A DNA stretch of 64,000 bases from Prevotella herbatica. GTDB lineage: Bacteria; Bacteroidota; Bacteroidia; Bacteroidales; Bacteroidaceae. Positions 6,816 through 51,605 of the stretch are shown one piece after another; within the stretch, counting starts at the first letter, position 1; every line of letters begins with the position of its first letter. The notes under the pieces are model-generated. The model searched no databases. It worked only from the letters and a program-made list of their open reading frames with translations, and had not been told where the DNA came from. The translations under genes were made by a program, and so were the position numbers. Where the stretch lies: NCBI RefSeq assembly GCF_017347605.1, contig NZ_AP024484.1:1951501-2015500 (forward strand), in the 5' to 3' direction.

Positions 6816-8366
6816 CTAGTAGATAATTCCTACGCTGACTCCAAGTGTGTATTTGTTGTATGTTGTATTATCATATTTCTTAGTCTTCAGATAATCACCA
6901 TATATTTTGACAAACCAATTTGATGTAGTTCCCTTAATTGTTATAGGGTGCTCATAACTCAATTCTCCATGTACGAAACCATAGTCTACGGCATAATATT
7001 TCATATCAGGTAACAGAACACCTTGTGCGTATTCATTTGTATTGTCAGCCAGTTTGATACTGTTACGTGTGGAGAAACTATATCCTGCACTGAGGGCATA
7101 TCCAAATCCTGTGTTGCATAAGTTCATACCTTCCTCAAATGCGATGTTTAAGCGTCCGTATTTTAATTCTGAAGTATTAAGAAGATACTTATTGCTTACA
7201 TCATTATAGTTGGCTATGAATCCCATGTAAGCAAATATTCTGTCTTTATAAGGAATGTTCATTCTGTAATGTGCATCAAGATTTAGAACTCTTATCTGAT
7301 ACCGCTTATTAAATTTAATCTGGGTATCATATCTATATGAATTGAAACCTGTTAGGGAGTCTGTATTGATAATAAGTTTCTGTCTGTATTCATCAGCAAA
7401 TCCCTCTTCGTAAGTTGCTTTAAAGTCTATCTGATGAATTAATTTTCCAATTGTCAGTCTATTTTGTGACTGTAATCCATATATGTAATTGTAATAGTGA
7501 CCAGGGCTATACTTGTATACGCCCAGCACACTTTCACTTCCACGCTGGATGCTTATACTGTTTAGTGAATTTAAAACATAACCTTTATATCCATAAGATA
7601 ATTCTGTACCAAAGTTATGGTTTACCCATTCACGGCTGAAACCTCCGTAACCACCGATTGTTCCATTCGCATTCTCAAGTCCGCTCATCAAATAATACTT
7701 CAATGTAGCGTCAGTCTGCACGGTTGTTACATTCTGTATTTTCTCTTTGCGTCGGTTATACCATGCAGCAAGTCCTATACTGCTGTTGCCGAAGTTATAT
7801 ATTGCAGACGGAGTGAGTTTATATTCAAGAAGTTCTGATCTTGATCTTGGATCACGCAGACGACTTAAATCACCTAGGTTGTAATCAAGGCGTGCACCAA
7901 AGTTCCATTTCCCTAATCTGGTTGTACCAATAGCCGCAGTAAGATTTATATTCTGGAAATCGTAGTTTCCATATACTGACGAACCGCTGAAATAAGGGTC
8001 GCTATTGTATGGGCGAACAACGTCAGCCCAAGCACGATCTTTCGTTTTACCGTTGTTGAAATCAAACTTACCATATCCATAAAGGATTTTGGAAATCTTT
8101 TGATATCTTTCAGTAAAGAACTTTAGATTATGACTTGACGTACCTTCCTGAACACGGCGATAGTCACCACCGTTATATGAATAATCAAAGTTGGCTATTC
8201 CGTGGTTGGCAGTCATGTCTATACCTAGTCCTGCAGCATTGTCTGTATTGTGCCAAAGAGCTTTGGTATCAAGATACATGTATTTGCCACGGCTCATAAG
8301 GCTGTCTTGTGCAAAGACTGGATTTACAGCCAATGATATTATTAATAAAATATACTTATTCATCAT
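6816..8366 (-). CDS. DUF6850-family outer-membrane beta-barrel protein
   Basis: I choose the ATG at 8366, which gives 516 residues and a clean signal peptide (NKYILLIISLAVNPVFA, then QDS). The frame is open further upstream, but that would bury the signal peptide. The rest is a run of alternating aromatic/polar strands with turns (for example NFGARLDYNLGDLSRL, IGLAAWYNRRKEKIQ, YHYN-like loops) and ends in the strand TLGVSVGIIY, as expected for an integral outer-membrane barrel. It matches my memory of the Bacteroidetes family DUF6850; its function is unknown. Its start overlaps the stop of the DUF4876 gene (ATGATGAATAA), which points to translational coupling. It is the last gene of the three-gene operon. 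Confidence 0.75.
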   Translation of the reverse strand: MMNKYILLIISLAVNPVFAQDSLMSRGKYMYLDTKALWHNTDNAAGLGIDMTANHGIANFDYSYNGGDYRRVQEGTSSHNLKFFTERYQKISKILYGYGKFDFNNGKTKDRAWADVVRPYNSDPYFSGSSVYGNYDFQNINLTAAIGTTRLGKWNFGARLDYNLGDLSRLRDPRSRSELLEYKLTPSAIYNFGNSSIGLAAWYNRRKEKIQNVTTVQTDATLKYYLMSGLENANGTIGGYGGFSREWVNHNFGTELSYGYKGYVLNSLNSISIQRGSESVLGVYKYSPGHYYNYIYGLQSQNRLTIGKLIHQIDFKATYEEGFADEYRQKLIINTDSLTGFNSYRYDTQIKFNKRYQIRVLNLDAHYRMNIPYKDRIFAYMGFIANYNDVSNKYLLNTSELKYGRLNIAFEEGMNLCNTGFGYALSAGYSFSTRNSIKLADNTNEYAQGVLLPDMKYYAVDYGFVHGELSYEHPITIKGTTSNWFVKIYGDYLKTKKYDNTTYNKYTLGVSVGIIY

Positions 8367-16851: not shown

Positions 16852-16882
16852 TTTGTTCTTCTCTCAACTTGCATTATCTTTG
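16852..16882 (+). promoter_or_regulatory. Bacteroidetes-type promoter for the PASTA-rluD-ddl operon
   Basis: TTTG at 16852-16855, a 19-base spacer, then TATCTTTG at 16875-16882. The leader to the ATG at 16976 is about 85 bases. Confidence 0.8.
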
Positions 16883-16975
16883 CATAAGATAAGGCTGTAC
16901 TCGGCGAAGCATTCAAGTTAATTTGATGTATTTAACTCGCTTGCAATATCTTAGCAATTAAATTAATGTATATAA

Positions 16976-50148: not shown

Positions 50149-50233
50149 GTAGCTTCGTGGCTAAAAATCAAGGGTTCTTCGTCAGTTAGTGTGTCTTCTC
50201 TGTGTTTTTTGTGTTTTTTAGCTACGAAGCTAC
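50149..50233. repeat. Long local hairpin at the left edge of the second island
   Basis: GTAGCTTCGTGGCTAAAAA (50149-50167) is complementary to 50215-50233 in 18 of 19 positions. The right arm of this hairpin is part of the island's left terminal repeat, so it can pair locally or with the far end near 51.1 kb. Confidence 0.8.
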
Positions 50234-50723
50234 GGTAACTCTCGCAAAGCCCATAAACAAAGGGGAAACGATACGCAGCTTGTAGAATCTAGCTACGATA
50301 AGCTACGTTCTAGCTACGTCTACTAGTGTTGTTTTAACGATGAAATGTATTCTATGAGTGAATTTGTCAAAGAAACGTTAGCTGCATCAGAAGAATAGAG
50401 GATGTTTAAATTGATGCTGTAAACGAAAGCAGAATTATCAAGCTTGTTTAAATGTTCTGCAGAATTCCGCTGAATTCTCGGCAAAGATACAGCAAAATTT
50501 TGTCCATGCAATCAGATTTAGGTTAGCCTGTTAGCCAAAGTTTAAACTACTGGGTGCTATACATCATAATACATGTGCGTGCGGATGCGCACACTCTGGG
50601 TTTTTCGTAAAAACAAGTGCCGAAGTGTCTATCCATTGAGCCTCAATTTGTTAGAATACTTTTCAAGTGGTATTAAGCGTCGGTTATTTGTCGGTAAAAT
50701 ATGAGGAAGATTTTCTTCATTTC

Positions 50724-50807
50724 GCATTGCGTTTTACGAAGAATTACGATGCGTTTTGCTATGTTTTGCAATCCGTTCTACGAAGAAATGCATTGCGTTT
50801 TACGAAG
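50724..50807. repeat. Direct repeats of an 18-mer
   Basis: GCATTGCGTTTTACGAAG occurs exactly at 50724-50741 and 50790-50807, with degenerate copies between (GATGCGTTTTGC, CCGTTCTACGAAGAA). The period of the exact copies is 66 bp. Confidence 0.85.
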
Positions 50808-50862
50808 TAATAGGAGGCGAAATATCGTAGGAACGTTTGCATTTCTATATGGAATTAGTTGT

Positions 50863-50878
50863 GTTTCTATATAGAAAC
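50863..50878. repeat. 16-bp perfect palindrome GTTTCTATATAGAAAC
   Basis: A perfect palindrome in the core of the second island; possible protein-binding site. Confidence 0.7.
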
Positions 50879-51171
50879 GCATGTAAAATCCGATATTTGA
50901 CCGTCAAATCACCGTCACTTTATTTAGTCAAATTCGTCGATAAAATATTGATAATCATTATGTTGACACTTCGACACTTATATTTTTCAAAACCCTAAGT
51001 GCGCGTGTGTGTACGTACATTAATATATGCACAGAAATAGTAACGTAGCTAAGACGTAGCTCATCGTAGCTAATTTGACCTAGCTACGTATCGTTTTTCC
51101 CAGTGTTTATAGGCATTGCGAGAGTTACCGTAGCTTCGTAGCTAAAAAACACAAAAAACACAGAGAAGACA

Positions 51172-51605
51172 GCCTAAATGTATAAGATTTAAATTGTCAC
51201 AGATAAATCTAAACTCTAAATAGTTAATTTATAATATGTTACACTAAAAGCTAATCTTTTTAAGTGAGCATTAGTGTTAACGAATATGTTGAATGTCAAT
51301 ATTTTGAGTTGTATTTAACGACAATAAAGTATCTATACTCCATTCCCAAAATTGACGAAGAACCAAATTATGGGATAGGCATAGCCATACGATGATGGCT
51401 CACCAAATAAATGCAATGATATTTCTTTTATGTAAGTTGACAAGCCTTGATTTTAAGTACTATTCATCTTTAAATCCATCTGTAGTTTTTTTATACTTTA
51501 GTTATATTTTTACTGTTCATGTTTGTTTTACTAACGTTATTAAATTATCACCTAATTTCTCTCAATAACCAATATTTTGTTGTAAATGAAGAAAAACGCA
51601 AAAAG
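51172..51605. other. AT-rich leader region before the glycan locus
   Basis: No credible coding frame and no strong hairpin. A search by eye for promoter elements found only the promoter at 51606-51638. Confidence 0.5.

Follow-up and report, generated by a model that had tools for sequence, protein, structure and literature searches.

A long MITE-like intergenic family with IS4/DUF4372-type tips and two core types in Prevotella herbatica

The BrickBuilt MITE of Porphyromonas gingivalis consists of 23-nt tandem repeats in a leader-repeat-tail arrangement with small inverted ends, and its tips match the IS5-family elements ISPg1 and ISPg9 (PMC4596501). Prokaryotic MITEs in general have TIRs, are AT-rich, non-coding, intergenic, multi-copy and narrow in host range, and usually measure 50–1000 bp (PMC4596501). 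The element described here has all of these general properties, but with both outer ends it reaches ~1.2 kb, beyond a length limit that is a matter of convention rather than mechanism, and its core appears to be swapped between loci. It has TIRs, dispersed and mostly intergenic copies, no functional transposase or conserved ORF, and tips in common with an autonomous IS.

The closest design is that of BrickBuilt. Both elements are intergenic and transposase-free, occur in ~20 or more copies per genome, have short terminal tips in common with IS elements of the same genome, carry internal tandem repeats that span roughly two helical turns (23 nt in BrickBuilt, 22 bp and degenerate here), and have internal promoter activity or a prediction of it, in the Prevotella element a prediction (PMC4596501). 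However, the tips of the Prevotella element are of IS4/DUF4372 type and those of BrickBuilt of IS5 type (PMC4596501), and the Prevotella element has in addition a heptamer-bearing TIR of up to ~235 bp, a nested inverted repeat, a central palindrome and two apparently exchangeable cores. It does not fit the BrickBuilt pattern of a 23-nt tandem repeat with leader, tail and IS5-type tips. With IS4-family DUF4372-DDE insertion sequences, of which we found an intact one (L220, MAG G041) and a decayed one (L178, this genome), it has terminal tips in common that match local variants in the two genomes; unlike them it has no transposase, and only the ~19-bp tips are common to both. It represents a new family, MITE-like and long, whose tips are of IS4/DUF4372 type. 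We consider it probable that this non-autonomous family is old and that its copies are kept alike by recombination. Bacterial MITEs are usually pictured as static relics; here old orthologous insertions appear to swap an internal block and keep their flanks, and the concerted evolution of dispersed bacterial noncoding DNA becomes directly measurable.

Structure and limits of the window copy

The window is the whole stretch analysed, 64,000 nucleotides at positions 1951501–2015500 of a single-contig genome of 3,524,789 bases. To the left of the island lies a gene for an HlyD-type membrane-fusion protein, to its right one for a glycosyl hydrolase of family 28; the neighbouring gene gives Segatella paludivivens DSM 17968 as the nearest named relative (98% at the protein level). 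The ends of the island are perfectly inverted (50192–50247 against 51116–51171, 56/56 complementary), and inverted likeness persists inward (50176–50268/51095–51187, 88%; 50266–50319/51043–51096, 81%). AGCTACG starts at 50220, 50228, 50291, 50301 and 50312 in the left arm and its reverse complement CGTAGCT at 51044, 51055, 51065, 51129 and 51137 in the right arm, with the spacings of 8, 10 and 11 mirrored between the arms. Nested inside is a second inverted pair with a 15-bp stem (50615–50629/50965–50979) and a 72% match in its flank (50573–50604/50989–51020). The core holds two 18-mer direct repeats (50837–50854 and 50859–50876, 83% identity), a 16-bp perfect palindrome, GTTTCTATATAGAAAC, and a 22-bp periodicity across 50700–50890 (autocorrelation 0.485 at 22 and 0.497 at 44; 99% shuffle limit 0.398). 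A conserved ORF was found neither in the window copy nor in the family copies or their consensus. One short consensus frame resembling SEFVKEPLAASEELR looked protein-like and was rejected, its start not being conserved and immediate stops occurring in nearly all copies. The preliminary description had reported the perfect ends, the inward similarity, the five mirrored heptamers per arm, the nested pair, the 18-mers with the palindrome and the lack of genes, and all of these were recovered.

Its right boundary at 51171 did not hold. In an alignment of the 34 copies with their flanks, similarity extends right to about 51271, and the element ends at about 51276 with an IS-like tip (Table 1). Seven copies (L003, L006, L007, L014, L020, L030 and L032) carry an inverted copy of this right outer part on the left, giving a full element of ~1.2 kb with TIRs of up to ~235 bp. 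The window copy has lost the left outer part of its TIR, and copy ends are widely eroded.

Table 1. Coordinates of features of the element in the window copy
Feature	Position	Strand	Remark
Reported island: inner TIR arms and core	50192..51171		One of ~34 near-full copies in the genome
Right outer TIR (~105 bp)	51172..51276		34-copy alignment; left counterpart lost in window copy
IS-like tip TTTTAAGTGAGCATTAGTG (consensus TTTTAAGTGGACACTAGTG)	51258..51276	+	Same kind as IS4/DUF4372 ends
Left TIR arm with 5 AGCTACG heptamers	50192..50320		Self-comparison
Right TIR arm with 5 CGTAGCT heptamers	51043..51171		Self-comparison
Conserved block, predicted Prevotella-type promoter module, leftward	50421..50545	-	Conservation and consensus
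Predicted Bacteroidetes -7 box TATCTTTG	50482..50489	-	TAnnTTTG; TTG ~20 bp upstream
Apparently exchangeable core, type A in window copy	50535..51005		Type B at orthologous S. paludivivens loci
Nested inverted repeat, left arm, stem AAGTGCCGAAGTGTC (50615-50629)	50573..50645		Self-comparison
Nested inverted repeat, right arm, stem GACACTTCGACACTT (50965-50979)	50931..51020		Self-comparison
22-bp direct repeats, degenerate, resembling TTTTACGAAGAATTGCATTGCG; in core type A	50700..50816		Periodicity
Central perfect palindrome GTTTCTATATAGAAAC	50863..50878		Type B instead has GAGTGATAAGGCCCTTATCACTC
Outer inverted pair, left half GGTTCTTCGTCAGTT	50173..50187	+	Also at this site in S. paludivivens and in MAG G041 (left half)
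Outer inverted pair, right half AATTGACGAAGAACC	51350..51364	-	Same site in S. paludivivens

The site of the window copy holds other repeats in two relatives. Quite different repeat elements occupy the same intergenic site in S. paludivivens (L040, ~7270–8130) and in MAG G041 (L041, ~7255), and inverted ends GGTTCTTCGTCAATTT lie there on both sides in S. paludivivens and on the left only in G041. This position appears to be a hot spot at which unrelated repeats replace each other. Within the S. paludivivens element (L040, ~7560–7720), differing near-palindromes stand ~22 bp apart (GTAATTTAATTAC, GTAATCTGATTAC and GTAATCGAATTAC), a series that resembles the core repeats in design and differs from them in sequence. 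The GGTTCTTCGTCA ends, similar to those of ISL3 elements, make a putative ISL3-type outer shell a lead.

Distribution of the family and its terminal tips

When the island was compared by blastn with its own 3.52-Mb genome, ~34 near-full copies (73–93% identical) and additional fragments were found, and further copies are present in S. paludivivens and two sister MAGs. Outside those relatives, no full-length or long match was obtained in ~395 other genomes of the genus (398-genome sample). An assembly artefact at the inverted ends is virtually impossible, because the structure recurs at 34 places in a genome assembled as one contig and again in three independent assemblies. The outcomes that the preliminary description had named as refuting it, a single copy lacking conservation in close relatives or such an artefact, are clearly not what was observed. 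A phage or plasmid origin was rejected, as the phage and plasmid collections gave no match to the element. A candidate autonomous relative inside 3380730–3383421 (L036) was also rejected, since what lies there is a gene for a 327-aa protein, no transposase, flanked by pieces of the element. The copies are nearly all intergenic, and their orientation towards neighbouring genes is random (11/10/7/6), for which reason a promoter serving the neighbouring gene was rejected.

At nine sites, element-bearing counterparts with aligned flanks were identified in relatives, a count that is biased because loci L138–L149 were fetched as element-bearing. Free of this bias are the stretches of S. paludivivens taken from parts of contigs C1 and C2; there, L011, L024 and L034 were matched, L026 was partially matched and L008 had no counterpart. 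Since most comparable sites are occupied at the same place in a relative, the family is old and mostly fixed, and recent acquisition, one of the causes offered in the preliminary description, is not supported. Of the two signs of mobility that it had proposed, multiple copies were obtained; a clean empty site was not found in the relatives, the L008 site of S. paludivivens being free of the element and filled by 115 bp of other sequence.

The outermost sequence of the element is CACTAGTGTCCACTTAAAA. Allowing up to 3 mismatches, the 19-bp tip has 17 matches in its own genome, compared with 0 for a reversed control, and all but 2 of the 17 lie in family copies. One of the two exceptions (1491900) adjoins a DUF4372 remnant, and the other (2548249) borders a sequence of 390 bp in which one frame resembles the C-terminus of the intact transposase. 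The same genome carries a decayed DUF4372/DDE IS of 1319 bp (L178); CACTAGTGTCTCTTAAT forms its tip at either end, and its two flanks match at 8/9 bases. In the sister MAG G041 an IS of this kind is intact (L220) and encodes a 387-aa IS4 transposase (NF033592 at 275 bits, PF14294, PF01609); its tips end in TTTTAACGGGACACTAATG and TTTTAACGGGACAGCAATG, and the element copy L144, also from this MAG, carries the tip TTTTAACGGGACACTAGTG. This tip variant, common to the IS and the element within G041, is the best evidence that the element may be mobilised in trans. A DUF4372-type transposase probably spread the element in trans into intergenic sites, and the earlier proposal of a non-autonomous mobile element agrees with a multi-copy, gene-free family having tips that match an IS4/DUF4372 insertion sequence.

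Against this, both tips are recognisable in only four copies (L006, L014, L020 and L030), and by eye none of the four has a clear target-site duplication; transposition itself is therefore inferred. In addition, the ~235-bp heptamer-bearing TIR far exceeds the IS tips, which do not account for it. The element is best read as long and MITE-like, moved in trans and now largely immobile: it would have spread mostly before the species split from S. paludivivens, and today the copies are largely fixed and the local transposase is a pseudogene.

Partial and recombined relatives of the element were also encountered. In another Prevotella species (L153, 1500–1597), the 98 bp at the outer end of the TIR, IS-like tip included, stand alone, the rest of the element being absent. 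S. paludivivens carries the nested inner element, with inverted arms, 22-bp repeats and GTTTCTATATAGAAAC, as a stand-alone unit free of the outer TIR (L212–L217), several of these loci having related, longer repeat arrays. At five other S. paludivivens loci (L207, L208, L209, L210 and L211), AGCTACG heptamer arms of the same layout are joined to other 22-bp repeat arrays. The joining of heptamer arms to other arrays suggests a larger superfamily of modular intergenic repeats.

Core types and copying between arms

Two types of core, completely different in the middle, were distinguished: type A is marked by the 22-bp repeats and GTTTCTATATAGAAAC, type B by GAGTGATAAGGCCCTTATCACTC or a close variant. 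In the P. herbatica genome 32 of the 34 cores are of type A, L034 is of type B, and L033 is a chimera with a first half of type B and a second half of type A. At two orthologous sites, L011 and L024, the core is A here and B in S. paludivivens. Between L011 and its counterpart P139, the flanks and the right arm are 0.88–1.0 alike between the species and the core drops to 0.08–0.76; the P139 core is 0.92–1.0 alike to other S. paludivivens loci. L024 and its counterpart P171 show the same switch. Six type B copies of S. paludivivens have common block edges near 50535 and 51005.

These patterns suggest that the core has been exchanged between dispersed loci; accordingly, two cores from one genome often resemble each other more closely than do the cores of a shared site in different species. 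The core was closer to own paralogues than to the orthologue for 33/33 paralogues at L011, 32/33 at L024 and 24/33 at L006. The corresponding count was 0/33 at L003, L031 and L034; with the core closest to the orthologue in 3 of 10 comparisons, exchange would be frequent and not universal. Right arms mostly track orthology (at L011, 0/33 own paralogues were closer than the orthologue). Recombination would keep the copies alike, the core between the nested inverted repeats moving between loci.

A plain decayed MITE family, in which the core is conserved only because the subfamilies descend from a recent common ancestor and loci exchange nothing, would fit the IS-type tips, the multiple ORF-free copies and the orthologous pairs that are closest to each other (L031, L034 and, for the core, L003). 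We consider this reading unlikely, because A/B differences occur at orthologous sites with matching flanks, six B copies share block edges, L033 is chimeric, L144 shows inverted copying (see below) and the degree of conservation varies along the element.

To explain the apparent core exchange, ordinary homologous recombination between copies is enough. It is quite unlikely that the nested inverted repeats instead delimit a true cassette, moved between arms by a specific mechanism other than homologous recombination, with the core serving as an operator array for the adjacent promoter; were this true, one core type could spread through existing copies and a switch of core type would rewire many loci at once.

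The two TIR arms of one copy probably also copy each other. Agreement between arms of the same copy was 0.635 versus 0.587 for permuted pairs (p<0.0005), a difference to which shared subfamily ancestry contributes, and a left arm had its own right arm as the single closest in only 8 of 32 cases. The clearest case is L144, whose right side repeats the inner left arm in inverted form with 73/74 bp matching; other copies reach 72–78% there, with gaps. The perfect 56 bp of the window copy would then be due to a recent arm-to-arm event rather than to constraint. Gene conversion, another cause offered in the preliminary description, is supported, as probable copying of arms within a copy and of the core between loci.

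Conservation, promoter block and repeat arrays

Across copies, conservation was highest in the promoter block (50431–50545, 0.92) and the two inner arms (0.90 and 0.93), followed by the palindrome region (0.88), and was lower in the TIR arms (0.84 and 0.81) and the outer TIR (0.66). The initial impression of conserved ends around a drifted inside is thus reversed over the 34 copies, which makes the perfect 56 bp an agreement of the two arms within the window copy and not an agreement across copies.

Bacteroidetes promoters are of the -33/-7 type. The TATCTTTG block holds the sole TAnnTTTG of the 34-copy consensus; it reads leftward and, with the TTG upstream, agrees with this type. From the consensus match and the conservation we infer promoter activity, with transcription running leftward and leaving the element. 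The core lies upstream of this block and, with its 22-bp repeats and palindrome, may act as a binding array. In this way, a conserved promoter would have interchangeable palindrome and repeat arrays beside it at many places in a single genome.

High conservation of the promoter block and both inner arms relative to the TIR parts might instead mark the core as the gene of a functional noncoding or regulatory RNA under selection, housed in a mobile element or domesticated from one, with the TATCTTTG block as its promoter and the nested hairpins as its structure. In keeping with this, folding of the core is far superior to that of column-shuffled alignments (z about -10 for either strand), and other Prevotella have the same promoter-like module. 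However, the fold signal is equal on the two strands (z -9.8 and -10.8), as inverted repeats in DNA must produce, and the only predicted promoter points away from the core. The predicted leftward transcript folds modestly (50480–50300, z -1.9; -4.7 with the TIR). Changes in the inner stem are mostly one-sided within the P. herbatica genome; paired changes in the stem flank distinguish A from B, and copying between arms would give the same. No Rfam family scored above its gathering score, the sub-threshold ones being TD-1 and SpF43, and the A and B cores are wholly unlike in the middle. We consider an RNA gene quite unlikely.

For a structured RNA or a protein-binding array inside the element, the two other options of the preliminary description, there are pointers in the conserved promoter block, in the good folding of the core on either strand and in the heptamer, 22-bp and palindrome arrays, which look like putative binding sites; these do not favour one option over the other. 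A further alternative is that the element as a whole is a dispersed protein-binding array with a nucleoid, chromosome-organising or regulatory role, in which the heptamers, 22-bp repeats and palindromes are the sites and A and B are alternative specificities. The heptamers at 10 and 11 bp and the 22-bp repeats keep helical phase, a perfect palindrome centres both A and B cores, ~34 copies are spread around the chromosome, and S. paludivivens has, at other loci, related modules of repeats and palindrome that occur by themselves. We nevertheless find it very unlikely, as the ends of the copies are widely eroded, most of the genus is free of the element, and subterminal repeats are also common as transposase-binding sites.

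A promoter-like module related to the conserved block (...CGCCGAGTACAGCCTTATCTTATGCAAAGATAATGC...) is also present elsewhere in the window, at 16875–16929. Modules of the CGCCGAGTACAGCCTTATCTTATGCAAAGATAATGC type were found as well near L032 and in other Prevotella (L154 and L155).
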